Source of the DNA: Alphaproteobacteria bacterium
GTDB lineage: Bacteria; Pseudomonadota; Alphaproteobacteria; GCA-2731375
NCBI GenBank assembly: GCA_021776235.1
Contig: JAJFGG010000016.1
Span: forward strand, 62,001-126,000
Direction: 5' to 3'
Length of the DNA stretch: 64,000 bases
The notes under the pieces were generated by a model, which searched no databases, was not told the origin of the DNA, and saw only the letters and a list, made by a program, of their open reading frames with translations. Positions 24,463-40,241 of the stretch are shown here, piece after piece. Each line of letters opens with the position of its first letter. Within the stretch, counting starts at the first letter, position 1. Made by a program: the position numbers and the translations under genes.

Positions 24463-25719
24463 ATGACACAGTCAAAATCAATGTTTCAGAGCAGTGGCGG
24501 CCAGCAGCCGGAGCGACCCCGTCAGGCGGTGATCCTGGCCGGCGGCAGAGGAACCCGTTTGGCGCCGATCAGCGATTTGCGCCCCAAACCGTTGATCGAG
24601 TTCCATGGCCAGCCCTTCGTCGAGTACCTGCTTGAGATGCTTTCGCGGGAAGGTTTCGAGCGCGTGGTCCTGCTGACCGGTTACCGGGGGGAACAACTAG
24701 AAGCAAGACTGGGCAGTGGCGCCAAATGGGGTCTGGAAATCGCATATCATTGGTCGCAAGAAAAATTCGACACCGGCGCCAGGGTGCGGGCGGCCAGTGA
24801 CCTGCTGGATGATACTTTCTTGCTGCTCTATTGCGACAACTACTGGCCGTTGCCATTCGAACAGCTTTGGACGCGTTATTGCGCCATGGAGGCCGAGGCG
24901 CTGGTGACGGTCTACCGGAACTCGGACGATTACACGCGCTCGAATCTCATTGTCGATGCGACAGGTAAGGTTGTCCTCTACGACAAGACCCGAAGCGCAA
25001 AAAATCTGCAAGGGGTCGACATCGGGTTCTTGATCTTGCGCAAACATTTGCTGCAGCTGCTGCCGCCAGGCAATATTAATCTGGAGCGCGAGTTGTTCCC
25101 GAAATTGATTGCGCAAGGCCAATTGACCGCCTTTGTCAGCGAACATCGGTACTACAGCGTTGGCGACATTCCGCGCCTGCCAGCGACAGAAAAATTTTTG
25201 CGGTTTGAACCAACGATCCTCCTGGACCGTGACGGCGTGCTTAACAAAAAGCGTCCAAAGGGGGAATACGTAACGGATTGGCGCGAATGGGAATGGCAGG
25301 ACCATGCCCTTTCCGCACTGCGAAAGCTGACGCAGGCGGGCTATCGTATCGTTGTCGTCACCAATCAGGCCGGCATCGCGCGCGGGATGCTGGATGCCGA
25401 CGCACTGGAAGACATCCATTCCCGCATGACAGCGGATGCCGAGGAATTTGGCGCGAAAATCGCGTGCGTCTACTATTGCCCGCATGGCTGGGACGACGGC
25501 TGCGACTGCCGTAAACCGCGGCCAGGCATGCTGCTGCAGGCGCAGAAGGATTTCTGCCTGGACCTTTCACGTTGCTGGTTTCTGGGAGACGACGAGCGTG
25601 ATGGCATGGCGGCGAAGGCGGCGGGATGCCGGTTTGGCCTGATCGATGAGAACACCGACCTGGCCGGCATGGTTGATCATATTCTCGCCCGCCGGGCCAA
25701 CATTTTACAATTTGGATAA
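24463..25719 (+). CDS. Fused sugar-phosphate nucleotidyltransferase (HddC-like) and HAD phosphatase (GmhB-like)
   Basis: A 418-residue two-domain protein. Residues about 21-240 are a nucleotidyltransferase with AVILAGGRGTRLAP (22-35), RPKPLIEF (40-47) and the metal-binding CDN (124-126). Residues about 250-415 are a HAD-IIIA phosphatase with LLDRDGVLNK (253-262), VTNQAG (298-303), the zinc site Cys338-x-His340-x5-Cys346-x-Cys348, and FLGDDERDG. The pair matches the two last steps of GDP-D-glycero-alpha-D-manno-heptose synthesis: removal of the 7-phosphate (GmhB) and guanylylation (HddC). The kinase HddA lies two genes on; no GmhA isomerase is in the window. It overlaps an open frame upstream by ATGA. 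Confidence 0.88.
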   Translation: MTQSKSMFQSSGGQQPERPRQAVILAGGRGTRLAPISDLRPKPLIEFHGQPFVEYLLEMLSREGFERVVLLTGYRGEQLEARLGSGAKWGLEIAYHWSQEKFDTGARVRAASDLLDDTFLLLYCDNYWPLPFEQLWTRYCAMEAEALVTVYRNSDDYTRSNLIVDATGKVVLYDKTRSAKNLQGVDIGFLILRKHLLQLLPPGNINLERELFPKLIAQGQLTAFVSEHRYYSVGDIPRLPATEKFLRFEPTILLDRDGVLNKKRPKGEYVTDWREWEWQDHALSALRKLTQAGYRIVVVTNQAGIARGMLDADALEDIHSRMTADAEEFGAKIACVYYCPHGWDDGCDCRKPRPGMLLQAQKDFCLDLSRCWFLGDDERDGMAAKAAGCRFGLIDENTDLAGMVDHILARRANILQFG

Positions 25720-25736
25720 TTTGCGGAGGCAGTGGT

Positions 25737-26723
25737 TTGGCAGAACGGGTCTTGATAACTGGAATTACCGGTTTCGTCGGCTCTCACTTGGCGGACTATG
25801 CCTTGTCACGCGGGGTGGAGGTCTATGGCGTGCAACGTTGGCATCTTTCGCGGCGCGACAACGTTCGCCATTTCCAGGATCAGGTGTCATGGGTTGACTG
25901 CGACATTACCGACCCGATCGCGGCGCGGGAGATGTTGGATAAAGTCGCGCCGGAACGGATATTCCACTGTGCCGCCGAAAGTTTCGTTTCGCCTTCGTGG
26001 CAGAACCCGACCCGTTATATGAACGTCAATTATAATGGCACACTGAATATCCTGGATGCCATGAAACAGGCCGGCAGCACCGCGCCCTTTCATATTCCGG
26101 GCTCGGGCGAAGAATATGGCGAAATCCGACCGGAAGAACTGCCCATAACCGAAGAAACGGTCCTGCGCCCGGTCAATCCGTATGCGGTATCGAAAGTAGC
26201 CCAGGACTTGATCGGTTATGTCTATCACAAATCCTATGGCTTGAATGTAATCCGAACCCGCACCTTCAATCATGAAGGACCGCGGCGGCAAAAGGTCTTC
26301 GGCATTCCCTGGTATGCCTATCAGATTGCCCGCGCAGAAGCCGGCAAAGGCCCGCGGGAGTTGCGGGTCGGTCATCTGGACGACCGGCGAAATTTCACCC
26401 ATGTGCGCGATATTGTTGAAGCCTACTGGCTGGCCACGGAACATTGCCTGCCCGGCGAGTTGTATTTAATCGGCGCCGAAGCGGAGAGCCACGTTCATAC
26501 CTTCCGCGATTGCCTGGACCAGTTGATCGATATGTCGAACGAAAGCGGTTTCAGTTACGAAACCGTCGCCGAATTTGTCCGGCCGACGCAGGTGCCATAC
26601 CTGATTGCCGATACAGCGAAGTTCCGGGCCGTCTGTGACTGGCAGCCAAAAGTCGCATTTGAGCAGATCCTTTCGGACACCCTGGACTATTGGCGCGAGA
26701 AAATCGCCACAAATTTGGATTAG
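25737..26723 (+). CDS. GDP-mannose/GDP-heptose 4,6-dehydratase-like SDR
   Basis: A 328-residue extended SDR. It has LITGITGFVGSHLADYAL for NAD(P) binding, HCAAESFVSPSW, NYNGTLNILDAM, YAVSK (YxxxK), NPYAVSKVAQDL and RTRTFNHEGPRR, which together resemble GDP-mannose 4,6-dehydratase. In the dehydratase signature the usual STSE or STDE becomes GSGEEYG: Ser replaces the catalytic Thr, Gly the next residue, and Glu is kept. With HddA and HddC beside it, the likely substrate is GDP-D-glycero-manno-heptose, giving a 4-keto-6-deoxy product. The start is TTG with GGAGG seven bases upstream. Confidence 0.85.
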   Translation: MAERVLITGITGFVGSHLADYALSRGVEVYGVQRWHLSRRDNVRHFQDQVSWVDCDITDPIAAREMLDKVAPERIFHCAAESFVSPSWQNPTRYMNVNYNGTLNILDAMKQAGSTAPFHIPGSGEEYGEIRPEELPITEETVLRPVNPYAVSKVAQDLIGYVYHKSYGLNVIRTRTFNHEGPRRQKVFGIPWYAYQIARAEAGKGPRELRVGHLDDRRNFTHVRDIVEAYWLATEHCLPGELYLIGAEAESHVHTFRDCLDQLIDMSNESGFSYETVAEFVRPTQVPYLIADTAKFRAVCDWQPKVAFEQILSDTLDYWREKIATNLD

Positions 26724-26735
26724 GCGAGAAAGCAC

Positions 26736-27743
26736 GTGGATAGAGACGACGACGACATATTCATGACGCGCACGCCATTGCGGATAAGCTTCAATGGCGG
26801 CGGCACCGATTTGCCGAGTTTTTTCGAGCATGAAGATGGCCTGGTGGTTTCAACAACAATCAACAAGTACATCTATGTCACGGTGAAGCGTCTTAACCCG
26901 GTTTATCAGGAACAATACAGACTGAATTATTCGACCACCGAGAGTGTCGCTTCGATCGACGAGATCAGCAACGATATCGCCCGCGAGTGTTTACGGCTCG
27001 TCGCCGTGGACGGACCGCTCTACATAGGAACCTTTGCAGACCTGCCGGCGAATTCAGGTCTCGGTTCGTCATCCAGTTTTGCCGTTGGGTTGCTCAAGGC
27101 TCTACACCTGATGCGTGGCGAAAAGGTTTCGAACGGTCAGCTGGCGGAGGAAGCCGCGCATGTGGAAATCGATGTGCTGGGCCACCCGATTGGGAAACAG
27201 GACCAGTATGCCGCCGTCTTCGGCGGGCTGAACGGCATTGAGTTCCGCACGGACGGCAGCGTTTCGATCGAACCGTTGACGATGCGGTGCGAATTCCTGA
27301 ATAGGTTGTTTGATCAAACGCGCCTCTACTGGACCGGAATTACCAGGAGCTCATCTGAAGTCTTAAACGAACAAAACGCGAGATCTTCGGAAAATCGCGC
27401 CGCGCTGCAGTGCATGCGCGAACAGGCTGTGTTGCTTCGCAGCAAAATGCTCAAAGGCCTGGACCCGGCCGCCTTTGGCGCTCTGCTTGATGGCAACTGG
27501 CAGGTAAAACGAAAGCTGGCCAGCCGCATTTCGAACGGCGAAATCGACCGCCTGTACGATCTGGCCATTAAGGCAGGCGCATACGGCGGCAAACTATGCG
27601 GCGCCGGCGGCGGCGGTTTCCTGATGTTCCTGGTGCCACCGGACGGCGCTGATGCGGTTCGCCAGGCGCTTGGAAATCTGAGTGAAGTGACCGTCTCTTA
27701 TGAACCGCACGGCTCGATCCAAATGCTGCCTCGTTCGAATTAA
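26736..27743 (+). CDS. hddA: D-glycero-alpha-D-manno-heptose 7-phosphate kinase (GHMP family)
   Basis: Phosphorylates heptose 7-phosphate at C1 in the alpha series. The GHMP fold is shown by TRTPLRISFNGGGTDLPSFF (11-30), the phosphate-binding loop LPANSGLGSSSSFAVG (103-118), and KLCGAGGGGFLMFL at the C-terminus. The opening NGGGTDLP is characteristic of HddA-type kinases. The start GTG has GGCGAGA upstream. ATG at 26763 fits the family N-terminus but lacks a binding site. Located between the dehydratase and an RmlC-like gene, which fixes the heptose reading of the operon. Confidence 0.9.
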   Translation: MDRDDDDIFMTRTPLRISFNGGGTDLPSFFEHEDGLVVSTTINKYIYVTVKRLNPVYQEQYRLNYSTTESVASIDEISNDIARECLRLVAVDGPLYIGTFADLPANSGLGSSSSFAVGLLKALHLMRGEKVSNGQLAEEAAHVEIDVLGHPIGKQDQYAAVFGGLNGIEFRTDGSVSIEPLTMRCEFLNRLFDQTRLYWTGITRSSSEVLNEQNARSSENRAALQCMREQAVLLRSKMLKGLDPAAFGALLDGNWQVKRKLASRISNGEIDRLYDLAIKAGAYGGKLCGAGGGGFLMFLVPPDGADAVRQALGNLSEVTVSYEPHGSIQMLPRSN

Positions 27744-27759
27744 CCACGGAGTGAACGGG

Positions 27760-28317
27760 ATGCCACGGCAAAGCGCAATAGAAGGTGTTGTTGAAACAAG
27801 TAACGTGCATCTTGACGATGAACGGGGCTCCCTCGACAAGTTCTTCCACGCGCAGGTGCAGGATACCTGCTCTTCGGCGCTTACCTGGAAACAGGTTTTG
27901 CGCTCCACAACCAAGCAGGCCGGTGTTCTGCGCGGGCTGCAAGCCTTGAAGGCGCCCTATACCGAAGGCAAATTGATCGTTCCACTGAACGGCGAGATGT
28001 TTTGGGTAAGCGTCGACATGCGTGCCGGCAGCAACACGTTTGGCTGCTGGACATCGAAGCTGTTACGCCCCGACAACGGAAAAGGCCTGTTCGTGGCACG
28101 CGGGTTTTTCCATGGTTGTCTGTCGATGACCGACAATGTGGAACTGCTGATCATGGCCGACAACGATCATTCCGATGACCACAATGTCGGCATCAAATGG
28201 GACGACCCCGATCTTGCGATCGACTGGCCATTGCAGGACCGGCAGCCCATTTTGTCGCTAGCACACATGAAATATCCCAGCTTTGCGGACTTTCAACACA
28301 ATCATCATGGTTTGTAG
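27760..28317 (+). CDS. RmlC-family cupin, catalytic His replaced
   Basis: A 185-residue member of the dTDP-4-dehydrorhamnose 3,5-epimerase family by layout: ERGSLDKFF, GVLRGLQALKAPYTEGKLI, GEMFWVSVDMRAGSNTFG, FVARGFFHGCLSMTD and IKWDDPDLAIDWPL. In active epimerases the fourth stretch is RGLHYQ, and its histidine is the general base. Here it is Gln (RGLQAL). The usual YKCTDYY region is also changed to MADNDHS. It may therefore be non-catalytic, or act by a different mechanism on a heptose derivative. ATG chosen because GGAG precedes it. Confidence 0.83.
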   Translation: MPRQSAIEGVVETSNVHLDDERGSLDKFFHAQVQDTCSSALTWKQVLRSTTKQAGVLRGLQALKAPYTEGKLIVPLNGEMFWVSVDMRAGSNTFGCWTSKLLRPDNGKGLFVARGFFHGCLSMTDNVELLIMADNDHSDDHNVGIKWDDPDLAIDWPLQDRQPILSLAHMKYPSFADFQHNHHGL

Positions 28318-28352
28318 CCGTGGCTTGTAACGATGTCTGACGAGGCAAAGCA

Positions 28353-29102
28353 GTGAACCAGGAGCAAAGATATCTGTTCGATACCCATGGCTATATTGTC
28401 TTACGGGGTGTGCTTGACACGGCACTGGTCGCCACTCTGAACGGGCATATGGACCAACTGGAAGCATTGGCCGAGGACGAATTTCCCGAAGGCGTCACTT
28501 TGGGTAAACCACGCAGCGAAAATACCCTGTTCATCTCCAATATCGTCGAAGCCGATCCGGTCTTTTTCAATTTGATCGATCTGCCGCCGGTTATCGACAT
28601 CGTCCGCGAAACGTCGTCGGGCCTGTTCCGCCTGAACCATACCAATTCAATCACCCACGGCAGAGGCGCCTATACCTACGTTCATATGGGCGGTGCGCCG
28701 CTGCATCCGAAAGCGACCTATGCCGTGGTGGACGGAAAAATCTTTTCATTGCTGACCAAGGCAGTCTTTCCCTTGGCCAATCAGAAGACCGACGATGGCT
28801 GCTTTGCCGTCATCCCCGGTTCACACAAGTCAAATTTTGAACGCCCCAGTGACGATCACCCGGATGCCAATCCTTATCTGGTGCCGGTTGAAGCCGAGCC
28901 GGGTGACTGCATTGTGTTTACCGAAGCGCTGGCCCACGGCAGCCTGGTCAACCAATCGGGGCGGGCGCGCAGAACCCTGTTCTATTGTTACAGCGTTGGA
29001 TACATGCCGGATTGGGGCAATTTGGGTCTTTCGTTTAGCGAAGGATTTCTCGAACGGCTCTCGCCCGAACAGGCCGAGATCGTGCGCTTAAAGGCCAATT
29101 AG
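28353..29102 (+). CDS. Phytanoyl-CoA dioxygenase (PhyH) family protein
   Basis: A 249-residue 2-oxoglutarate/Fe(II)-type oxygenase-like protein. It begins FDTHGYIVLRGVLD, the usual PhyH entry. It has YVHMGGAPLHP in the place of the HxD iron-binding strand, GCFAVIPGSHKSNF (typical hydroxylase G-S-H-K segment) and a distal ALAHGSLVNQSGRARRTLFY with the second His and the 2-oxoglutarate Arg. The HxD motif is not clean, so metal binding is unproved. In this operon it could hydroxylate a sugar or a lipid carrier group. Start is GTG with GAGG eight bases upstream. Confidence 0.85.
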   Translation: MNQEQRYLFDTHGYIVLRGVLDTALVATLNGHMDQLEALAEDEFPEGVTLGKPRSENTLFISNIVEADPVFFNLIDLPPVIDIVRETSSGLFRLNHTNSITHGRGAYTYVHMGGAPLHPKATYAVVDGKIFSLLTKAVFPLANQKTDDGCFAVIPGSHKSNFERPSDDHPDANPYLVPVEAEPGDCIVFTEALAHGSLVNQSGRARRTLFYCYSVGYMPDWGNLGLSFSEGFLERLSPEQAEIVRLKAN

Positions 29103-29147
29103 TCGGACATATGGGCAAAAACAGAAATTTCGAAAAGAGAGTAACGA

Positions 29148-29597
29148 ATGATTGACGGGGTAAAAGTCGTACCGCTGCGGAAAATTCCCGATGAACGCGG
29201 CGCCGTGTTCCATTTTCTGAAGAAAACCGATCCGCATTTCACGGAGTTTGGCGAAGTCTATTTTTCCTGCGGTTATCCGGGCGTTATCAAGGCCTGGCAC
29301 ATCCATAAGGAAATGACCCTGAACAACGTTTGTGTCGTCGGGATGATCAAACTGGTCATTTACGATTGCCGTGACAATTCGCCCACAAAAGGTGAACTCA
29401 TGGAAATCCATATTGGCGAGCAGAACTATGCTCTTGTGCAAATTCCGCCACTGGTGGCCAATGGTTACAAGGCATTCGGCGACAAGATGGCGATCATTTC
29501 GAACTGCGCCAGTATGGTCCATGATCCCGACGAGCTGATCTATATAGATCCGCTCAACAACGATATTCCCTATGACTGGGCGCAGAAACATGGCTGA
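29148..29597 (+). CDS. Short RmlC-like cupin (sugar 3,5-epimerase or isomerase)
   Basis: A 149-residue single cupin domain: VKVVPLRKIPDERGAVFHFL at the start, then CGYPGVIKAWHIHKEMTLNN and VQIPPLVANGYKAFG. Unlike its neighbour two genes upstream it keeps histidines (AWHIH) where RmlC-type enzymes have RGLHY. It is a likely epimerase for a 4-keto nucleotide sugar made by the dehydratase. The end overlaps the next methyltransferase gene by eight bases. Confidence 0.82.
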   Translation: MIDGVKVVPLRKIPDERGAVFHFLKKTDPHFTEFGEVYFSCGYPGVIKAWHIHKEMTLNNVCVVGMIKLVIYDCRDNSPTKGELMEIHIGEQNYALVQIPPLVANGYKAFGDKMAIISNCASMVHDPDELIYIDPLNNDIPYDWAQKHG

Positions 29598-30867
29598 CAG
29601 CACACAACCGATCGGACCCTGCATCGTTTGTGCGGGCAGCAACATTCAGGAATTTCTGGATCTTGGCGAGACGGCTTACGCGAATGCCTTTCCGACGGCG
29701 GAAGACATCCGCCAAGGGGGCGAAGAAAAGTTCCCGCTAACTGTCGGGTACTGCCCGGACTGCCATCACGTACAATTAACCCAACACGCCACACCATCGG
29801 ATTTGTTCTCCCATTACCTGTATATGTCGTCGGCCTCGGCGGTTTTGGTCGGGCATCTTAAGGGTCTGGCAAAGACGGTGGCCGCCCGCTACCACGAGCA
29901 GGCGCAAGGCCTGGTACTCGATGTCGGATGCAACGACGGCACGCTGCTGTCCGGCTTCATGGAAGCGGGGGTTGGTCGCGTACTGGGCATCGACCCTGCC
30001 GCAAACCTGGCACCTGTCGCCCAGGACAAGGGCGTTGAGGTCATCACTGACTTTTTCAATGCGGAAACGGCGCGAAAACTGAAAAACGACGGCCGCGAGG
30101 CACAAATCATAACGCTTACCAACAGCTTTCCACATATCCCCGACCTTTCCGGTCTTTGCCGCGGCTTCGATGAATTGCTCAGCGATGACGGCGTGATCGT
30201 ATTGGAGGCGCATTATCTTGGTGACCTTCTCGACATGCTGGCCTTCGACACGGTTTATCACGAGCATGTGTCGTACTGGTCCCTTGGTCCAGCCTGCCGT
30301 TTATTCGCAGCCCACGGCTTCGAGGTGGTCGATGTGGAGAGGCTGCCCATCCATCATGGCCAGTTAAGGCTTTGGGTGCGCCGCGCCGGTAAGGAAGCAG
30401 TCAGTGAACGTGTCGCCACTTTGCTAGAGGCGGAAAAGGCACGTGGATTTGGACGCCTTGAGACTTTTCAGGCGTTTGCCGGCGCCATCGACCAGATCAG
30501 GAGTTCTGTTACCGATTGGTTGGCGCAAGCCACGGCGGAGGGAAAAACGGTAGCCGGCTATGGCGCGCCGGCCAAGGGGAACACACTGCTCAGTTACCTG
30601 CGGGTCAGCCCTGAGGATCTGAAGTACATTGCCGATCTGAACCATCTGAAGCAGGGCCGTTTTACGCCTGGAACACATATCCCGGTGGTTTCCCCGGACC
30701 TGTTGCGGCAAGATCCACCGGACTATTTGCTAATTCTTGCCTGGAATTTTGTGGAGGAAATCGCCGCGCAACAGCAGGCCTTTGCCGATACGGGCGGTCG
30801 TTTTTTTGTGCCGGTTCCATCTCTGCGCGAGATTACCGGCGCTGCAACCGCAATACCGGCGGCATAA
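29590..30867 (+). CDS. Sugar C-methyltransferase with N-terminal zinc domain
   Basis: A 425-residue protein of the class that methylates a carbon of 4-keto nucleotide sugars (NovU/TylC3-type). The N-terminus has zinc cysteines Cys11-x2-Cys14 and Cys55-x2-Cys58 (GYCPDCHHVQL). The SAM-binding motif is VLDVGCNDGTLL (109-120). HHGQLRLWV and AGYGAPAKGNTLL in the C-terminal domain are also characteristic. It completes the operon and predicts a branched (C-methyl) deoxy sugar. A perfect palindrome immediately follows its stop. Confidence 0.9.
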   Translation: MADSTQPIGPCIVCAGSNIQEFLDLGETAYANAFPTAEDIRQGGEEKFPLTVGYCPDCHHVQLTQHATPSDLFSHYLYMSSASAVLVGHLKGLAKTVAARYHEQAQGLVLDVGCNDGTLLSGFMEAGVGRVLGIDPAANLAPVAQDKGVEVITDFFNAETARKLKNDGREAQIITLTNSFPHIPDLSGLCRGFDELLSDDGVIVLEAHYLGDLLDMLAFDTVYHEHVSYWSLGPACRLFAAHGFEVVDVERLPIHHGQLRLWVRRAGKEAVSERVATLLEAEKARGFGRLETFQAFAGAIDQIRSSVTDWLAQATAEGKTVAGYGAPAKGNTLLSYLRVSPEDLKYIADLNHLKQGRFTPGTHIPVVSPDLLRQDPPDYLLILAWNFVEEIAAQQQAFADTGGRFFVPVPSLREITGAATAIPAA

Positions 30868-30921: not shown

Positions 30922-32811
30922 CTAGCCTGCCGCTGCCGCCAGGGAACCGGGCAGTTCGCCGATCATCAAGCGTGGAATGTCTTTGTTCTTGAAATCTTGC
31001 GCATGCAGATCAGCGACGGTCAGATCGAACGCCTCCAGCCGTTCCTTCCAGTATGAAGAGCGAGATAGCTGACCTTCGAGACGTGTGATCGTCGCCGGCG
31101 CGATGGATCCCTCCAATTTATGCTCGAGATAGGCCAGAAAATAGAGTGCAAATCCGTGCTCGGGCGAAATGACATCGCAAAGATTGTTCAGATGGTGCCG
31201 CAGTTGCTGCAACTTCTGAATTCGATTTTCACCAAATAGACGATGAAAATTCAGGTGATAATTCATGAAGAACCAGATGTCGTCGATCTGTTCGCGTGTT
31301 GGAATGGCGTCCAACGGTATCGCTTCAAAGGCTTCCGCAAATCCAACGGTGGCCAGGCGTTGGCCGGTTTCGAGCTCATTTTGCTTGCCAAAGCCGCCCG
31401 ACATAAAGCGCACTTCAGAAGTTTCCGTTGCCTCGATCAGACCTTGGGCGATCATGGCGTCATAGATGGGCGTGTTCGGCAGCGGCTGTAGAGCCGTAAT
31501 GCCGCACCAATCCATGTCCATTTGTCTGGCAACGTTGATTGTATCCCCGATCATGGCCAGCGTTTCGTTGGGAAACCCCAACATCAAAAAGACCCGGGCA
31601 TGGATGCTCGGATAGCGCTTCAATGTTTCCGCCGCTCGCAGAAATACATCGACGGTTCCGGGCTTCTTGACCTGCCGTAGGATTTGAGGATTGCCGGATT
31701 CCATTCCGATATTCAGCGCGATGCAACCGCTCTCGGCCATGGCATGCACGGTTTGATCGTCGCAAGACGACGCAATGACGCCGTTCGTTGCATCCCAGGT
31801 CATCTTCAGGCCACGCTTGATCTTGCCGTTGAATAGCTGCAGGGCCCGATCCTGATCCTTCAGCAAATCGTCATCGAGCCAGACAATATGATTGATGCCC
31901 TGGACTTCCTCGAGATACTGCAATTCGTCCAAAACACTATCGACATCGCGGTGACGCACACCACGACCGTTGAAATTTCGAACACTGCAGAAGGTGCACT
32001 GCGCCCGGCAACCGCGATTGGACAGCACGGTTGCGAAACGGCTGCCCTCTGGTTTCAAAGCGTAAAAATTACCGATGGTGCCGTATTCGGACAGTCTGCC
32101 GATGTCGATCAGATCATAGGCGGGAAGAACACTGATGTCCTGCCGGTCCGGGGCCGCCGGTTGCGCGATCGAATGCCGTTCGTCACCATCGGACAGGATA
32201 ACCTGGGCCAGGGCACTTGCCGGCTTGGCGCCACGGACCACATCGCAAAACAATTCAATTGCAACATCGGCTTCCTTCAGAAAGGCAATATCAATGCCCT
32301 TAATGTCATCAAGGATGCGTTCGGGGTTGTTGGAGACGTGAACGCCTCCCACCGCAACCGGTACATCAAAAGCTGCTGCATAGTCACAAACACGGCTGAA
32401 CGACAGATGCGTCATTGTGAACATGCAGGTGACGCCAATGAGATCGGGCGCGAAGTCCTCAATTCCCGCCTTCAACTCCTGTCGCCATATGGCATCGAAA
32501 TCAAAACTGCCGTCGTCGTACTGGTCGCGGCACGACTCCAAAATACTGTTGTTGAGGTTGCAAATTCTGACCTCAATATTTCGGCGACGAAGGTGTTCGG
32601 CGATGAGCAATATGCCATAGGGCGGGTAGTTGGCGTAGCGGCCACGCAAGGCGGTTTCTGGTTGAAACAGCTCGCTATTGCCGTCGGGCGGATTAACCAG
32701 GAGAACGCGATCTAAAGCGCCTTCCGGGAACAACCGCCGCAAAGCGCTTTCGACTTTAATCAAATCTGGGCTGTCTTGACCGCGCGTCGCAACCCTAGCC
32801 GCATGTGCCAT
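30922..32811 (-). CDS. B12-binding-type radical SAM protein
   Basis: A 629-residue protein. Residues about 35-190 form an N-terminal Rossmann-like domain typical of B12-binding radical SAM enzymes (RVLLVNPPDG, then GVTCMFTMTH and PVAVGGVHVSNNPE), but no DxHxxG cobalamin motif was seen. The radical SAM domain follows with Cys268-x3-Cys272-x2-Cys275 (GCRAQCTFC), IVWLDDDLL, and IGMESGNPQILRQVKKPG. A 200-residue C-terminal extension is unrecognised. Members modify unactivated carbons (methylation, ring changes, P-methylation). The ATG has ACAGGAG upstream; it overlaps the SDR gene by 17 bases. It is last in the minus-strand sugar array. Confidence 0.9.
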   Translation of the reverse strand: MAHAARVATRGQDSPDLIKVESALRRLFPEGALDRVLLVNPPDGNSELFQPETALRGRYANYPPYGILLIAEHLRRRNIEVRICNLNNSILESCRDQYDDGSFDFDAIWRQELKAGIEDFAPDLIGVTCMFTMTHLSFSRVCDYAAAFDVPVAVGGVHVSNNPERILDDIKGIDIAFLKEADVAIELFCDVVRGAKPASALAQVILSDGDERHSIAQPAAPDRQDISVLPAYDLIDIGRLSEYGTIGNFYALKPEGSRFATVLSNRGCRAQCTFCSVRNFNGRGVRHRDVDSVLDELQYLEEVQGINHIVWLDDDLLKDQDRALQLFNGKIKRGLKMTWDATNGVIASSCDDQTVHAMAESGCIALNIGMESGNPQILRQVKKPGTVDVFLRAAETLKRYPSIHARVFLMLGFPNETLAMIGDTINVARQMDMDWCGITALQPLPNTPIYDAMIAQGLIEATETSEVRFMSGGFGKQNELETGQRLATVGFAEAFEAIPLDAIPTREQIDDIWFFMNYHLNFHRLFGENRIQKLQQLRHHLNNLCDVISPEHGFALYFLAYLEHKLEGSIAPATITRLEGQLSRSSYWKERLEAFDLTVADLHAQDFKNKDIPRLMIGELPGSLAAAAG

Positions 32812-33811
32812 GCTGCACTCCTGTCGTGATTTCGCCAGGCGCCGGGCTGATCTGGGCGTCCAAATTGGCGTGTAGGGTCAAGCAGCGCGAAAGTTCGTCA
32901 ATGATGACCTCAGATGATGGGCGTATGGGCTCGAAACCCGGCATCTCCATGGCCCGATTGCTGAGCTGTCGCGGCCAATCCGGATTATCTTCATCGATAT
33001 CGGCGGCATCGCTAACCGTGCAGCGCAAGCCGAGGCGCTTGCAGACCAACGCCAAGATACGCCTTTTGGAAATCGCTTCAGGACTGACAAGGTCGATCGC
33101 CCGATTGAAGGCCGGTGTATTCAGTGCGTAACCTACGCAGTCGGCAATTTCGGGCGGCCCGATATAGTCCCTTAGAAAATTCTGCCTGTTGATTTGCAGG
33201 GGCTTTCCCGAAATTAAGCTGTTCGCAATTTCAGAAAGAAAGTAGCCGCCTGCAATGGGGAGTTCCTTGCTGAGATAACCGAAGACCCGAACGTCGAGAA
33301 TTGAACGCGAGACCAGGGCGCGATGCTTGGCTTCGGCGACGATTTTCGCTAATGGGTAACAGGGGGTCTTCTCGGATTGATTAACAGGAATTGTCAATGC
33401 GTCACTGTTTTCAGCGGGACGATTATAGGCGTTGCCGTAAATCGCACCGGTACTAAGGAAGAGCAATTTACAGCGCGGCTGCTGGTTGAGATAAGCCAAT
33501 GTCATGTTGTCAACGGCTTCCGAGGCATAAAGGATTTCAGCCCCCAACCCGCGAATGACCTTGGGATCGCCCGGCAACGCGGCGTTCACGACGAGATCAT
33601 AGGCGTCGCGACCAAAGTCACTGGTATGGCTGATTTCAGCCGCTCGTTCGCCCTTTTCAGCAACGCCCAAGAGTGTTCGCAGGCGCCCGGGCCGTTCGGT
33701 GAAGAGATCCAGCCGGCAATCGGCATCCAGTGCCTCGGCCAAGCCGCGGCCAATTTGACCCCCGGCCCCGAGAATCGCAATTCTGGCGCCTGAAATGCCC
33801 CGATCTGTCAT
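32795..33811 (-). CDS. NAD-dependent epimerase/dehydratase-like SDR
   Basis: About 338 residues. The N-terminus has IAILGAGGQIGRGLAEAL (GxxGxxG). FLSTGAIYGNAYNRP supplies the Ser region, and YPLAK gives the YxxxK pair. YIGPPEIADCVGYAL is typical of SDR proteins acting on nucleotide sugars. The ATG at 33811 is chosen because GAGG lies eight bases upstream and the fold starts there. It lies between two radical-SAM genes. Substrate unknown; 4-keto reductase or epimerase in the array's pathway. Confidence 0.84.
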   Translation of the reverse strand: MTDRGISGARIAILGAGGQIGRGLAEALDADCRLDLFTERPGRLRTLLGVAEKGERAAEISHTSDFGRDAYDLVVNAALPGDPKVIRGLGAEILYASEAVDNMTLAYLNQQPRCKLLFLSTGAIYGNAYNRPAENSDALTIPVNQSEKTPCYPLAKIVAEAKHRALVSRSILDVRVFGYLSKELPIAGGYFLSEIANSLISGKPLQINRQNFLRDYIGPPEIADCVGYALNTPAFNRAIDLVSPEAISKRRILALVCKRLGLRCTVSDAADIDEDNPDWPRQLSNRAMEMPGFEPIRPSSEVIIDELSRCLTLHANLDAQISPAPGEITTGVQHGTCG

Positions 33812-33933
33812 CTCTGCCTCAAAAATTCCCGGAAAACGACCCTTGCAGCCGGTATCATAGGCATCAAACATGCTCAAATTATTAACTCTTTCGGATCATT
33901 TCCCGGGCATTTTGCGGGCCCGCCGGGACAGCC

Positions 33934-34899
33934 CTATCCTTGAACGCGGCCAGCCTCCGTTGCCAAGACGGTACAGTGGCCACACAGTTTGTGTTGGCTC
34001 TTTTTCCCGGCCGAATGGAGTTCGCGCAATTTGTTTAGCGGTTTGGCATTGAAGAGGTCGATGGGGTCCGTATCAAAAGCATTTCCGAAGCCATATTTAC
34101 CTTCGAGCAGATCTTCAAAACACAAAGCGACCTTGCCGTTGGCCAAGATCACAAGCTTTTCGAATAGATGGTGACACGGCTGTGCGGCCAACGGATCGTT
34201 GTTTTCAATGCGGGTGGCGTCGCCGCCCGTTTGCCCTGACCAGTCGTGCATGTGGTAACGAAGCACAAGATCGTTTCTTTTCTCGTTGATCCTGGTTTTC
34301 CAGAAGGCGCGGTATGCTTCCCATTCCTGGGCATTGTGTTTCTGTTGGATGAAGCGGATGACAAACCGGGTTTTATGGTTGCCGGCATCGCGTTCGCGAA
34401 TTGCCGCCTCAACGTTGCTGACAACGCGGTCGAAATTTGTTCGTGGGCGTGCGGTTTCGTGCACGGCCCTAGTTGCGCCGTCGATACTGACGAGGATTGT
34501 GTCAACGCCACCGGCAAGAAGTTGCCTGCGCCATTCAAGATCCAGCAAATGCGCGTTGGTCGATACGGCCACGCCTGTGAAGCCTCGATTTTTGAGCAAC
34601 GCAACCCGTTCTGGCAAGAATCGATCGAGCAGGGGTTCCCCCAATCCGAACAAATCAAACATCGTAATCTGATCTCGATAAGGTACCAGGCGGTCTATGA
34701 GGGCTTCGAATTTCTCCATCGACATCACGCCTTTGTCCCGTTCCGTCGGATGTTCGATCAGGCACATCGGGCAACGGGCATTGCAGCCGAAGACTGTTTC
34801 GATCACGACCCGGGACGGGATCAGGCGTTCGCCATGCCGATCGGTCATGTCCATGGCGCCTTGCCGCTTGTCGCCGATAGCTGTGGATGATGCCGCCAT
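33934..34899 (-). CDS. Radical SAM/SPASM-type protein
   Basis: About 321 residues with the radical SAM cluster motif Cys39-x3-Cys43-x2-Cys46 (FGCNARCPMC). FDLFGLGEPLLDRF follows (GGE-like segment as GLGEP), then VSTNAHLL and ILVSIDGATRAVHE. C-terminal cysteines (CHHLFEKLVILANGKVALCFED and LCGHC) resemble a shortened SPASM cluster site. ATG at 34899 is chosen (AAAGG upstream), since upstream codons run into the neighbouring gene. It follows the E1-beta gene by 32 bases. Family members modify sugars, peptides or cofactors. Confidence 0.88.
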   Translation of the reverse strand: MAASSTAIGDKRQGAMDMTDRHGERLIPSRVVIETVFGCNARCPMCLIEHPTERDKGVMSMEKFEALIDRLVPYRDQITMFDLFGLGEPLLDRFLPERVALLKNRGFTGVAVSTNAHLLDLEWRRQLLAGGVDTILVSIDGATRAVHETARPRTNFDRVVSNVEAAIRERDAGNHKTRFVIRFIQQKHNAQEWEAYRAFWKTRINEKRNDLVLRYHMHDWSGQTGGDATRIENNDPLAAQPCHHLFEKLVILANGKVALCFEDLLEGKYGFGNAFDTDPIDLFNAKPLNKLRELHSAGKKSQHKLCGHCTVLATEAGRVQG

Positions 34900-34931
34900 G
34901 TTCAGCCTTTGGATTAGAGGGCAAGGCGCGC

Positions 34932-35873
34932 CTAAGGCGCGTCGAGGAAGGCGCGGATTTCGTTCATGTCGGGCTGGAACCGGTCTGGATTGGGACACAG
35001 GGTCCAATCATCATAGGACATGACCTTAACCCGTGTGGCCCCCAGCATTTCGGATACTGCGCTCACCAAGCCGAAATACGGTTTATTGCGACTCTTCGCG
35101 TCATCAAGAATAAGCAACCGTCCCGCCGTCATGGCTTCTTCGCGAACATTATCGCCGACGGTAATATGCGCGGCGTTTACGCCCATCAGGCCGCATGAAT
35201 AACCCTCAGCCGTCAACTGTCCTTGGATCTCGGCCGCCTGGGGAAACGCCATATTGTAGGCGCAGACCGTGAGGTCCCGGCCGGATTCATAAACGATGCT
35301 GTCGGCGTGCTCGGTTATATGCTTTGGCGCCAGTGTCGAACCCGGAACCGGTTCGCGGAACAAACGTTCGCTGCAGGTGATAATGCGGAATCCCGGCGCG
35401 GCGAAGTGCCTGGCCAACACGGCGGGTATGTCGTGACGATTTGTGACGGTATACCCTTCGATATCCGCAATCGAGCACAGGTCATAAAGCCCGTTGAATG
35501 AACTTTGCGGCCCCGAATATCCGCCATCAACGGTAATTGCCAGGATCGTGAACGAGGCTCCCAGGTTTTCCCCGCGCAGGATATTCCAGGTATTGACCAG
35601 TTGATCGACACCAAGCAGCAAGAAATCCAACTGCTTCATGCAATAGGCGCTGCTGATACCCTTTAGCATCAGGCCGAAGCCAACACCGGCCAGTGTGTTT
35701 TCGCTGTTTTGGGTATTGATGGCACGGTGGTCGTCATCCAGGTTCAGGTTGCGGGTCAGCCCGCCGAGGCATGAACCCGCGTCCACATTCTGGCCGTAAA
35801 GAACAAATCGGTCCTGTGCTGCGATGGTTTTGCGCAGGCAGGCGTTCACGAATGACACGTAGCTTTCGCTCAT
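34932..35873 (-). CDS. TPP-dependent E1-beta / transketolase-like subunit
   Basis: A 313-residue homologue of the beta subunit of 2-oxoacid dehydrogenase E1 or of the transketolase pyrimidine-binding half. The TPP-activating glutamate is Glu58 in QNSENTLAGVGFGLMLKG. ITVDGGYSGPQSSFN then corresponds to the E1-beta phosphate-loop region. The C-terminal Rossmann domain (VCAYNMAFPQAAEIQGQL, RLLILDDAKSRNK) is complete. The start overlaps the alpha-subunit stop (ATGACATGAG arrangement), so the two form one translationally coupled enzyme. No E2 or E3 lies nearby. It may perform carboligation or transketolation on a sugar precursor instead of oxidative decarboxylation. Confidence 0.86.
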   Translation of the reverse strand: MSESYVSFVNACLRKTIAAQDRFVLYGQNVDAGSCLGGLTRNLNLDDDHRAINTQNSENTLAGVGFGLMLKGISSAYCMKQLDFLLLGVDQLVNTWNILRGENLGASFTILAITVDGGYSGPQSSFNGLYDLCSIADIEGYTVTNRHDIPAVLARHFAAPGFRIITCSERLFREPVPGSTLAPKHITEHADSIVYESGRDLTVCAYNMAFPQAAEIQGQLTAEGYSCGLMGVNAAHITVGDNVREEAMTAGRLLILDDAKSRNKPYFGLVSAVSEMLGATRVKVMSYDDWTLCPNPDRFQPDMNEIRAFLDAP

Positions 35874-36805
35874 GTCATTTCCTCGCGCAATGCGGTCTGT
35901 ATTCTTATCGCTTCTGCGGCAAGGGTCGCAGGCTCGACCCAGTTTTTCAGCTGTTCGACGGGGTCCTTGTCCAAAGGGTCGAGCGCCGGCCAATCCGGTA
36001 TCTCGAGATGCCGCGCCGGGCCCTGATGATAGTTGACTGTTCTGCCATCAGGCGCCCGTTCATCGTGGACGGTGAACCAGCCCAGGGTATCCAAGGACAC
36101 CTCCAAAAGCACCGGTGTGGCCCCGGCGGAAGCCGCCAGGCGCGCGTCTTTGACGGCATCGAGGCAGGCAAAAACATCCGCACCGTCTGTACGGCGATAG
36201 GGGACAGCAAAACTGTTGCAGAATGCTTCGAGATCGATGGCGCAGCGGCGTTCGGAAACATGCGTTGCCAATGACCATTCGTTGACTTCGGCAACGATCA
36301 CGCAGGGTGCCGCCCGGCTTTTCATAAACTGCAGCGACTCGTAGAACGCACCCTCTTCAAGGGCGCCATCGCCTGTGGTGACAAAGCAAACACTGCCGTC
36401 GCCCAGGACCGCGGCACCCAACGCAACGCCGGCGGCGACCGGTAGGTTGTTCGCCAGGATTGACGAGCTGTAAGGCAACCCCTTTGCGGGATTTGACAGA
36501 TTCATTGAACCCAGGCGGCCGCCGTCCAGGCCTTCATTGCGCAAATGATAGGCCTGATACTCGCTCGCGAAATTGTCGGCGCGGGTGAGGTTGTAGTGAA
36601 TATTTCGATGGGTCAGGAGCAGGCTGTCACCCGACGCCATCGCCAGATCGACGGCCACCGCAATGGCCTCGTGCCCCAGCGCAAGATGAAGCGGGATCTT
36701 GAGCCCGTTGGTGTCCATGGTCTCGTTGATAAGGAGTTGCGCCAGGCGGAGCCGCAATACCTCCCGCGCGATATCTAGGCGGCTGTGGGCATTTGCACGG
36801 CACAT
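35870..36805 (-). CDS. TPP-dependent E1-alpha / transketolase-like subunit
   Basis: A 311-residue thiamine-diphosphate-binding subunit. LHLALGHEAIAVAVDLAM and LTHRNIHYNL resemble E1-alpha. The TPP-Mg motif is GDGALEEGAFYESL (about 145-158), with the Asn ligand in VAEVNEWSLAT near residue 175 replacing the usual VENNGYAIST. The ATG at 36805 begins right after the upstream SDR stop (TGAA-ATG). A longer version starting at 36838 would overlap that gene. It partners with the next gene. Together they resemble acetoin/pyruvate-dehydrogenase E1 but sit among sugar genes. Confidence 0.86.
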   Translation of the reverse strand: MCRANAHSRLDIAREVLRLRLAQLLINETMDTNGLKIPLHLALGHEAIAVAVDLAMASGDSLLLTHRNIHYNLTRADNFASEYQAYHLRNEGLDGGRLGSMNLSNPAKGLPYSSSILANNLPVAAGVALGAAVLGDGSVCFVTTGDGALEEGAFYESLQFMKSRAAPCVIVAEVNEWSLATHVSERRCAIDLEAFCNSFAVPYRRTDGADVFACLDAVKDARLAASAGATPVLLEVSLDTLGWFTVHDERAPDGRTVNYHQGPARHLEIPDWPALDPLDKDPVEQLKNWVEPATLAAEAIRIQTALREEMT

Positions 36806-36806
36806 T

Positions 36807-37721
36807 TCAATTTGCCCCATAGCCAAAATAATCGGCAAGACGGATCAAGCCTTCCCGGTATTGCACCGTGGCTTTCCAGCCCAGGTCAATTTCTGCCTTT
36901 CGGGACGACAGGGACCTGATACTGGGCGCCGCCGGGTTTTTTTCCGTCGTCGCAATCGAACTGCCAAGTATTTCCTGTGCCGCCGAAACAATATCGCCCA
37001 GGCTGGTCAATTCGGGTCCCTGTATATTGAGAACCCCTTCGACGGGAGATTTGCAGGCCGCAATGATGGCATCAGCGACATCGCTGACATGCAGATACCG
37101 CCGCGCCGTAGCGAGCGAACCGACGCTGATATCCTCTGGTCTGGCAACGCTGGCGAGCAGGCTTTCCACCGCTCCCCAGTTCGTCATGCGCTCGCCATAG
37201 ATGATCCCAAAGCGCAGAATTGCCAAGCTCAATTGATTGTTTCGGCTATACTGGGACAAGCCATATTCCGCCATCAATTTGGACAGAGCATACTCTGAGG
37301 TAAGCGCGAGCGGATCGATGCGGGTATCTTCCGTGACGGGCGTCTCGCCAGCCGCATCCGGATAGACCCATTCGCTGGAGGCAAAGACAAAGCGTCTGAC
37401 ACCCGCCTTTGCCGCTGCCTGCGCCATGTTCATGGTGCCGGCGACATTGATTCTGAAGCATTCGGCTGGTTTGCCGGTGCAATCGGAATCGCGGGAAAGG
37501 GCCGCGAGATGGACCAGCGCATCAGTGTTCAGATCAATATGATCGGCCACTCCCGGGTCATTGATATCGCAGCGGATCGTTGTGTCAGCATCATCCACCC
37601 TGAGGTCGATGCCCGATACCTTGATGCCTTGATCCCGGCATCGTTTGCGCAGGACCTGGCCGACAAAACTCTCGATGCCGGTAATGAAAATGCGCCCGAA
37701 TGTCTGTTGTTTCTGCATCAT
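36807..37721 (-). CDS. NAD-dependent epimerase/dehydratase-like SDR
   Basis: About 304 residues. The nucleotide-binding loop reads FITGIESFVGQVL, with Ser where most SDRs have the second Gly (GxxGxxG). RFVFASSEWVYP gives the Ser region, SEYALSK the YxxxK, and ARRYLHVSDVADAI the cap. It resembles UDP-glucose 4-epimerase-like proteins of glycan clusters. The ATG overlaps the stop of the upstream GT2 gene (ATGA) and its own stop is one base before the E1-alpha start, so the array is tightly coupled. Confidence 0.84.
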   Translation of the reverse strand: MMQKQQTFGRIFITGIESFVGQVLRKRCRDQGIKVSGIDLRVDDADTTIRCDINDPGVADHIDLNTDALVHLAALSRDSDCTGKPAECFRINVAGTMNMAQAAAKAGVRRFVFASSEWVYPDAAGETPVTEDTRIDPLALTSEYALSKLMAEYGLSQYSRNNQLSLAILRFGIIYGERMTNWGAVESLLASVARPEDISVGSLATARRYLHVSDVADAIIAACKSPVEGVLNIQGPELTSLGDIVSAAQEILGSSIATTEKNPAAPSIRSLSSRKAEIDLGWKATVQYREGLIRLADYFGYGAN

Positions 37722-38917
37722 GCCACGATCTTGCAAAGGTTCGACAGTTCATCTATCTGGCCAGACCGCCGAATTGGGCCTTCCGAAATCTCTTGGCGCG
37801 AGTGGAAAAGTTCCGGATCGACATATAGGAAATATTCGCGCTCCTCGCACGGCAACTGCGATAGCACCCGGCTGGTTGCAACAATCACCTCGGCCTCGGG
37901 TGAAGCTGTCAGGTAGGCTTCGACTATGGACTGGGTCTTTTCATGCTCCTCGACAACGAGCAAATCGGTTGCCCCGGACGTTCGCATGCAGAGAATGATT
38001 GTCTGGGCAACTATATGCGCCCTTAGACCCTCGTCGACCAAATTTGCGAGATGGTTCGCCGCTTCCAAGCCATAGGCGCACGCGCGAATTGTTAGGCTCC
38101 GTCCCCGTAAATACATCCCCCTGTCGAATGCGGTTAGAGCGCCTACGACATACTGCTGCGCCAGTTTCTGCGCGATAAACATCTGGCGCTGCTTCGGCGA
38201 CAGATTGGGAATGCTCACGGCGGCCAGTTGATAGTCAGCTAAGTAGGAAGACAAATGTTCGTCTTCAAACATACTCCTGGAGCCCTGCCCTGCATGTTGC
38301 AGCACGCCATGAATCGGGTCTTCGATGAAAACAACGTCGCCCATTTTCATGAGATTCGTCATACCGAAGAAATCAAATGAAAGCTGATACTGAAACGGCA
38401 TCAATGCCTTCTGGTAGGCTCGCCGCCGCATTATGGGCATCTCAACCGAATTGATGCTGTCTATAACTTCATGCAGGTTGCTCAAGCTGCGCCGACCGTG
38501 TTTGGATTCGTCCTGTCGGATGGACTCGATAGACCCATCACCCTCGCGAACTTTGAGCCACGTACCAAAGACCACCGCGACATCAGCGTGGTTGTCCAAT
38601 TCATCAATGGCCCTCAACAAGCCCTCTTCTATCAAATAGTCGTCGTCAGCCAGATATACGAGGTAGTCCCCGCGGGCCAGATTGAAGGCCGGCAACTGAG
38701 TTTGAAATCTGTTTAATGCATTTTCTTGACGGAAATAATATACGCTGGGCAGGCGGCCGCGGAATTGCTCGACGACAGCCTCGGTATCGTCGCTGGAGGC
38801 ATTGTCGGAGATAACAACTTCGAAATCCCTGAATTGAAATTCGTCAAGATGGCTCAAACAGGTGGCCAATCTCTCCGCTCTATTGCGGGTCGGTATGCAT
38901 ATACTCAGCTTTGGCAT
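37718..38917 (-). CDS. GT2 family glycosyltransferase, copy B
   Basis: A 399-residue protein with an N-terminal GT-A domain: LSICIPTRNRAERLATCLSH, VVISDNASSDDTEAVVEQ and GDYLVYLADDDYLIEEGLL (DDD metal site, about residues 92-94). The C-terminal 200 residues are unrecognised apart from being shared with the neighbour copy. The paralogue upstream has exactly the same length and the same ends (SEGPIRRSGQIDELSNLCKIVA compared with SEGPIRRSAQVDELLNLCKILA). Clearly a tandem duplication that has diverged. Probably transfers a sugar to a surface glycan or protein. Confidence 0.9.
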   Translation of the reverse strand: MPKLSICIPTRNRAERLATCLSHLDEFQFRDFEVVISDNASSDDTEAVVEQFRGRLPSVYYFRQENALNRFQTQLPAFNLARGDYLVYLADDDYLIEEGLLRAIDELDNHADVAVVFGTWLKVREGDGSIESIRQDESKHGRRSLSNLHEVIDSINSVEMPIMRRRAYQKALMPFQYQLSFDFFGMTNLMKMGDVVFIEDPIHGVLQHAGQGSRSMFEDEHLSSYLADYQLAAVSIPNLSPKQRQMFIAQKLAQQYVVGALTAFDRGMYLRGRSLTIRACAYGLEAANHLANLVDEGLRAHIVAQTIILCMRTSGATDLLVVEEHEKTQSIVEAYLTASPEAEVIVATSRVLSQLPCEEREYFLYVDPELFHSRQEISEGPIRRSGQIDELSNLCKIVA

Positions 38918-39041: not shown

Positions 39042-40241
39042 TTACGCCAGAATTTTGCATAAGTTCAACAATTCATCGACCTGGGCCGAACGACGAATTG
39101 GCCCTTCTGAAATGTTCTCACGGGACCGCAAAAGTTCCGGGTCGACATAAAGAAAATACTCACGCCCGCCGTACGGCATCTGCGACAGCTCATCGCCGGT
39201 CGCAATGGTCAGATTGGCCTCGGGCAGGGACGACCGGTAAAAATTGGCGATAGGCCGGGTCCTTTCGTGGTCCTCAACAACCAACAAATCCGTTGACCCG
39301 GATGTTCTCATGCTGACAATAATTGTCTGGACAACAATTTGAGTCCGCAGTTCCTTGTCCATGAACATTGCAAATCCATCGGCCTCGCCCACCCCGTAGG
39401 CAAGCGCGCGGACAATAAGGTTCCGACCAAGCAGGAACATGCCCTGGCGGCACGCGGTTTGTGCGGCAGCAACATACTGATGAACTATTCTTTGCGCGAT
39501 GAACAACTGGCGCTGCCTCGGCGACAGATTAGGCAAGGTGATGGCGGTCAATTCATAGTCAGCGAGGTAAGATGAAAGGTGTTCGTCTTCAAACAGTTGA
39601 TTGGAACCTTGCCCGTCATGCTGCACCACCCCATAAATGGGATCTTCGATAAATACAACGTCGCCCATTTTCATCAAATTGGTCATGCCGAAGAAGTCGA
39701 ATGAAAGCTGATACTGAAACGGCATCACCGCCTTACGGTAAGCTTCCCTTCGCATAATGGGCATTTCGACGGCATCGATATTGTGAATAATTTCATGCAA
39801 ATTGTCCAAACTGCGGCGTCCGTGAGCCGACTCATTCTGTTTGACCGCTTGAATCGAGCCGTCTTCATCGCGAACTTCAAGCCAGGCGCCGATGACAACC
39901 GAAACATCGGGGTTGCTCTCCAGCAAATCGAGCGCCTTTAACAGGCCCTCTTCTATCAAAAAGTCGTCATCGGCCAAATATGCAAGGTATTCCCCGCTCG
40001 CGAGATTGAATGCCGGCAGTTGGCTTTGAAATCTGTTTAATGCAGTCTCTTGACGGAAATAATAGACGTTTGGGAGTTGTCCGCGAAACCGCTCCACCAC
40101 TGCTGCAGTATCATCGCTGGAAGCATTATCAGAAATAACAACTTCAAAATCTTTGAATTGAAAGTCACTGAGCCTACTCAAACATGTCGCCAACCGTTCT
40201 GCCCTGTCACGGGTAGGTATGCAAATACTCAGTTTCGGCAT
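39042..40241 (-). CDS. GT2 family glycosyltransferase, copy A
   Basis: A 399-residue paralogue of the adjacent downstream gene, with LSICIPTRDRAERLATCLSR, VVISDNASSDDTAAVVER and LAYLADDDFLIEEGLL (DDD). Middle segments such as LSFDFFGMTNLMKMGDVVFI are identical in both, so they arose by gene duplication. Copies differ most in the C-terminal third, which suggests different acceptors. The gap of 124 bases between the copies contains no gene. Start ATG (MPKLSIC). Confidence 0.9.
   Translation of the reverse strand: MPKLSICIPTRDRAERLATCLSRLSDFQFKDFEVVISDNASSDDTAAVVERFRGQLPNVYYFRQETALNRFQSQLPAFNLASGEYLAYLADDDFLIEEGLLKALDLLESNPDVSVVIGAWLEVRDEDGSIQAVKQNESAHGRRSLDNLHEIIHNIDAVEMPIMRREAYRKAVMPFQYQLSFDFFGMTNLMKMGDVVFIEDPIYGVVQHDGQGSNQLFEDEHLSSYLADYELTAITLPNLSPRQRQLFIAQRIVHQYVAAAQTACRQGMFLLGRNLIVRALAYGVGEADGFAMFMDKELRTQIVVQTIIVSMRTSGSTDLLVVEDHERTRPIANFYRSSLPEANLTIATGDELSQMPYGGREYFLYVDPELLRSRENISEGPIRRSAQVDELLNLCKILA

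Follow-up and report, generated by a model that had tools for sequence, protein, structure and literature searches.

A compact block of six minus-strand genes lies between positions 30922 and 37736 of the window, which is the whole 64,000-nucleotide (nt) stretch of alphaproteobacterial DNA analysed here (assembly GCA_021776235.1, contig JAJFGG010000016.1). The block contains two genes for E1-like subunits dependent on thiamine diphosphate (ThDP), together with genes for short-chain dehydrogenases/reductases (SDR) and radical S-adenosylmethionine (SAM) enzymes. The six open reading frames are, in order of transcription:

36807..37736, minus: g1, extended SDR (PF01370), partner of the E1 pair
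35870..36838, minus: g2, ThDP-dependent E1-like alpha subunit (PF00676, 9e-30)
34932..35993, minus: g3, ThDP-dependent E1-like beta subunit (profile match to E1beta structures; 1um9_B, 9.6e-20)
33934..35007, minus: g4, radical SAM/SPASM enzyme (PF04055 and PF13186)
32795..33877, minus: g5, divergent SDR (weak PF01370 match, 4e-7)
30922..32811, minus: g6, B12-binding radical SAM enzyme (PF02310 and PF04055)

The sequence-only reading that preceded this analysis had described six tightly packed minus-strand genes of these families in this order, a description with which the open reading frames, the Pfam hits and the profile matches all agree. The likely ATG starts are at 37721 (g1), 36805 (E1alpha), 35873 (E1beta), 34899 (g4), 33811 (g5) and 32811 (g6). 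With these starts, g1 overlaps the upstream glycosyltransferase gene by 4 nt and is followed after 1 nt by E1alpha, which E1beta overlaps by 4 nt. Gaps of 32 and 122 nt then precede g4 and g5, and g6 overlaps g5 by 17 nt. All six have protein-level relatives elsewhere and are therefore real coding sequences rather than chance open reading frames. No Pfam match was obtained for g3 and its match to the NCBIfam E1-beta model is weak, its identity being clear from profile comparison with solved structures. AlphaFold modelled g5 (mean predicted local distance difference test score 41.9) and g6 (58.7) too poorly for the models to serve in a fold search, and scans for promoters and terminators gave matches at chance level only. 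From these families, g1 is predicted to act on a nucleoside diphosphate (NDP)-sugar as a dehydratase, epimerase or ketoreductase, g5 is probably a reductase or epimerase, g4 is a predicted sugar tailoring enzyme and g6 is predicted to modify a sugar carbon.

Genomes carrying a related pair were retrieved by means of E1beta alone. One other match was found among 385 genomes of the class (G173), one among 398 genomes of the phylum (G448), and seven more in a scan of a genome collection, including Chloroflexota, Ca. Liptonbacteria and Pseudomonadota metagenome-assembled genomes. In all nine of these genomes, which belong to several phyla, an E1alpha gene adjoins E1beta. A g1-like SDR gene, with 37–47% identity and an invariant YxxxK motif, lies beside or near the pair in seven loci (G173, G448, L015, L018, L019, L020 and L021); at the other two loci, L017 and the 10-kb contig L016, the SDRs closest to the pair are of a different kind. 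Most of the same clusters also contain genes for a GHMP kinase, a nucleotidyltransferase/GmhB-like phosphatase, RmlC and a C-methyltransferase. The earlier reading had equated the six-gene order with the system, and had held that its confinement to this genome would speak against it. The class, phylum and genome-collection searches recovered the full order in no other genome, and the six-gene order had to be rejected as a conserved unit; what recurs is its SDR–E1alpha–E1beta core, followed once by g4.

The three distal genes have distributions of their own. A g4 relative (47% identity) directly follows E1beta in G448 (locus L022), and recurs only there. The sole relative of g5, at 27%, was found in the same-genus genome G009 among 61 relatives searched, beside a C-methyltransferase gene and near a split transketolase. 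For g6, a 54% relative is encoded in G073 (locus L032), directly downstream of GmhA-like and HldE-like genes. G073 also carries a nucleotidyltransferase/kinase/cupin/C-methyltransferase module and has no E1beta match. This heptose/C-methyl module is thus separable from the E1 trio, which looks like an add-on. These differences would also fit an assembly of at least two juxtaposed glycan modules, with the E1 trio belonging to a heptose module and g4 to g6 serving another sugar, all the more since g6 has its relative in a genome without E1beta and g5 its only relative in a setting of CDP (cytidine diphosphate)-glucose genes. Such a juxtaposition seems rather unlikely in view of the tight packing of the block, including the g5/g6 overlap; moreover, the neighbours of the g6 relative and the heptose/C-methyl module in the same genome make g6 itself point to heptose. 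Downstream of this g6 relative, two large radical-SAM-like proteins of 688 and 701 residues are encoded in tandem (L032:13191-17365).

The six-gene block is not a separate unit. It continues an upstream GT2 gene and faces convergent sugar genes at 24463-30867:

24463..25719, plus: sugar-1-phosphate nucleotidyltransferase fused to a GmhB-like heptose-bisphosphate phosphatase (PF00483 and HAD)
25737..26723, plus: SDR resembling guanosine diphosphate (GDP)-mannose dehydratase/reductase (PF16363, 1.7e-73)
26736..27743, plus: HddA-like D-glycero-D-manno-heptose kinase of the GHMP family (NCBIfam HddA, 1.9e-51, below cut-off)
27700..28317, plus: RmlC-like 3,5-epimerase (PF00908, 3.5e-35), with relatives in most E1 loci
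28353..29102, plus: PhyH-type non-haem iron oxygenase (PF05721, 3.8e-17)
29148..29597, plus: small RmlC/FdtA-like cupin (PF00908, 1e-13), 73% identical to relatives in G173 and G448
29572..30867, plus: sugar C-methyltransferase (Methyltransf_13/14; PF08421 and PF08484), with relatives in six other E1 loci
37718..38917, minus: GT2 glycosyltransferase directly upstream of g1 (PF00535), with a 38% relative in the G173 island

Relatives of the nucleotidyltransferase/GmhB-like fusion occur in most E1 loci. The SDR at 25737..26723 has matches of 66–68% identity in G173 and G448, and its nearest structures are GDP-deoxyhexulose reductase, with the higher phmmer score, and then GDP-heptose 4,6-dehydratase, both being good matches. 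A 62% relative of the PhyH oxygenase is encoded in G173, where its gene overlaps E1beta. Beside that gene lies a second one for a protein resembling an oxygenase, without Pfam match (L012:8270-9025). A non-haem iron enzyme, AviO2, takes part in avilamycin branching as well (PMC4425429). The block does sit next to flagellar genes: upstream of it come genes for two GT2 proteins, two SDRs and, between these SDRs, a second SPASM protein, together with those for flagellin, FlgK and other flagellar proteins. FlgK/flagellin-like genes adjoin the G173 island too. As to the earlier proposal of a pathway for an unknown sugar, sugar biosynthesis is indeed likely, but the core now consists of the E1 trio and of heptose genes lying outside the six-gene block.

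The link to heptose relies on four gene types, kinase, phosphatase, nucleotidyltransferase and isomerase, all of which were found, with scores below the NCBIfam equivalog cut-offs. The best structural matches of the window kinase are heptose kinases, the nearest being 3k85; among NCBIfam models it fits HddA best, with a score of 175.5 far below the cut-off of 600. The phosphatase half of the fusion is GmhB-like (7.7e-48), and its NCBIfam score of 162 is just below the cut-off of 178. The isomerase is represented by a GmhA-like gene elsewhere in the same genome (L034:7021-7638), and GmhA-like genes are also present in two of the E1 clusters. An HddA-like kinase is encoded in each of the nine other E1-bearing genomes, in the cluster itself for G173 and G448 and by search in seven of the seven remaining ones. 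The kinase background is 22 of 142 class genomes with the genome under study included; the comparison of 9/9 with 21/141 gives a Fisher p=1.7e-7, which is a guide only, as this background comes from one class and the E1 loci span phyla.

What the E1 pair does can be approached through its residues. E1alpha retains the Asp of the GDG motif and the Asn ligand (D157 and N186), and the catalytic Glu of E1beta (E98) is conserved in all ten family members. The His of the HSQ motif, which serves lipoyl acylation, is missing from E1beta in the same ten members, an absence also seen in the alignment with 1um9_B; it is present in 6/6 outgroups, including four paralogues from the same genome. No lipoyl E2 or E3 domain was detected among the neighbouring proteins scanned. 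Since the His is missing and no E2 or E3 gene lies among these neighbours, carboligation is favoured over the feeding of an E2. The E1alpha family forms its own clade (100/100), apart from the four own-genome paralogues and from two plasmid E1alphas.

Two-subunit E1-like enzymes of antibiotic clusters add two-carbon (C2) branches to sugars with pyruvate as donor (PMC12247030, PMC4425429, PMC4753412). AviB1/AviB2 (avilamycin), Pau11/Pau12 (paulomycin), KbDH-alpha/beta (kibdelomycin) and the aldgamycin enzyme represent this sugar branching of the alpha-keto acid dehydrogenase 2 type. The window pair has the same anatomy, with separate adjacent E1-type subunits among NDP-sugar genes, intact ThDP/Mg-binding residues and catalytic Glu, and pyruvate as the predicted source of a C2 unit for a ketosugar. 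By analogy with these enzymes, the pair is best read as an E2-independent carboligase that would attach a two-carbon unit to a ketosugar derived from heptose. In contrast to the antibiotic clusters, where C3 or C4 is branched, the window pair is found in a surface/flagellar heptose-gene island and in several non-actinobacterial phyla.

Taken with its neighbours, this putative carboligase suggests that the island makes an unusual sugar derived from D-glycero-D-manno-heptose, probably with a C-methyl group and a two-carbon branch, and destined most probably for flagellin or some other glycan of the cell surface, a reading to which we give a probability of about one half. GmhA, encoded elsewhere in the genome, would make heptose-7-phosphate, from which the HddA-like kinase, the GmhB-like phosphatase and the fused nucleotidyltransferase would produce NDP-heptose. 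SDRs and RmlC-type cupins could then generate keto-deoxy intermediates, to which the C-methyltransferase would add a methyl group. E1alpha/E1beta, with their SDR partner, would next decarboxylate a 2-oxo acid with the help of ThDP, pyruvate being the probable substrate, and the pair would move the C2 unit to a sugar ketone instead of to a lipoyl-E2. Variable tailoring steps may fall to g4, g5, g6 and the PhyH oxygenase. It should be kept in mind that we infer the donor, the acceptor, the order of the steps, their stereochemistry, the product and its attachment to flagellin.

Several observations weigh against this scheme, besides the one-class kinase background. The proposed link between the sugar and flagellin is drawn only from gene position, as are the roles given to the radical-SAM enzymes. 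The heptose kinase of L020 is about 23 kb away from the E1 locus, on the same contig, and none is present in the 12.7 kb around the E1 locus of L015. Because the heptose assignments score below equivalog cut-offs, a related sugar-1-phosphate route is possible. The likeness to AviB1/AviB2, Pau11/Pau12 and KbDH concerns gene anatomy and published descriptions.

The E1 pair could instead act like a transketolase, taking a ketol C2 unit from, or passing it to, a sugar phosphate and so shortening or extending the heptose chain without decarboxylation of a 2-oxo acid. There is a precedent in Rif15, a two-subunit transketolase that moves C2 units in rifamycin biosynthesis (PMC6002545), and which shares with the window pair two overlapping genes, the ThDP cofactor and a proposed C2 transfer within a biosynthetic cluster. 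The same-genus genome G009 points in the same direction, having the g5-like SDR and a C-methyltransferase as well as CDP-glucose genes in the neighbourhood of a split transketolase. Rif15 is however of the transketolase type and uses a ketose donor, whereas both window subunits match 2-oxo acid dehydrogenase E1 (PF00676 for alpha, E1beta structures for beta) and the alpha subunit matches transketolase weakly (3e-6), which makes a transketolase-like activity unlikely. An E2-linked 2-oxo acid or acetoin dehydrogenase E1, supplying acetyl groups only, for example for sugar O-acetylation, would agree with membership of the E1 superfamily but is highly improbable given the loss of the HSQ His throughout the family, the clade separate from the own-genome paralogues, the lack of E2/E3 genes among the scanned neighbours and the location of the E1 relatives among sugar genes.

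The G009 locus with the two-gene transketolase and the only g5-like SDR (L013:3829-10835) is possibly another two-subunit ThDP sugar-branching cluster. An E1 pair on a Streptomyces plasmid (L025) was considered as an AviB-like reference and rejected, its neighbours being unlike a deoxysugar cluster and its E1beta retaining the HSQ motif; the plasmid search returned distant E1beta sequences only. On plasmid pDMC1 of Solidesulfovibrio magneticus (L026:5876-14854), genes for a radical SAM protein, a NUDIX protein, a kinase, E1alpha, E1beta, a GDP-fucose-synthase-like protein, an aminotransferase and a nucleotidyltransferase stand in a row, and this E1beta also keeps the HSQ His.

Carboligation on a heptose-derived ketosugar would probably rest on a known kind of chemistry, as a variant of the C2 sugar branching described from antibiotics. 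ThDP-dependent branching of ketosugars is also known from bacterial surface glycans and lipopolysaccharide sugars, through the YerE-like enzymes of yersiniose, erwiniose and caryophyllose (PMC12247030). YerE belongs to the decarboxylase class and is a single-chain flavoprotein dependent on thiamine pyrophosphate (TPP; PMC4753412, PMC12247030), whereas the window has two E1-type chains. With the GDP-D-glycero-D-manno-heptose route (GmhA, HddA, GmhB, HddC) and the GDP-6-deoxyheptose enzymes, the island may be compared for its HddA-like kinase, its GmhB-like phosphatase, a nucleotidyltransferase, a dehydratase/reductase-like SDR and RmlC cupins. Its scores are below the equivalog cut-offs, and it adds the C-methyltransferase, PhyH, the E1 pair and the radical-SAM enzymes. 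In line with the earlier reading, which knew of no named pathway with this gene order, a literature search covering few subscription journals returned no paper on a pathway with this gene set or on a heptose/E1/radical-SAM flagellar pathway. The sugar pathway of the island is real and probably undescribed. It is more tentative to see here an undescribed class of surface-glycan sugars, heptose-derived, C-methylated, C2-branched by an E2-independent E1 lineage found across phyla, modified by SPASM and B12 radical-SAM enzymes and attached to flagellin.

Sugar branching in surface glycans has so far been ascribed to YerE-like single-chain enzymes, the two-subunit E1-type enzymes being described from antibiotics (PMC12247030). 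If the proposed scheme is true, a sparse, multi-phylum E1 lineage tied to heptose genes would extend two-subunit E1-type branching to surface or flagellar glycans, and E1beta without the HSQ His would provide a gene marker for finding branched higher-carbon sugars.

Further glycosylation genes surround the island. The two GT2 glycosyltransferases upstream of g1 (37718-38917 and 39042-40241, both minus) are similar to each other, and the second radical SAM/SPASM protein is encoded at 41741-42985 on the plus strand; relatives of the GT2 proteins (33–38%) and of this SPASM protein (49%) are grouped beside the G173 island (L023). At the other edge of the window island, a TPR protein whose GT41 domain resembles O-GlcNAc transferase is encoded at 19622-22285 (plus), and a 1002-residue protein resembling it flanks the G173 island (L012:1573-4581).

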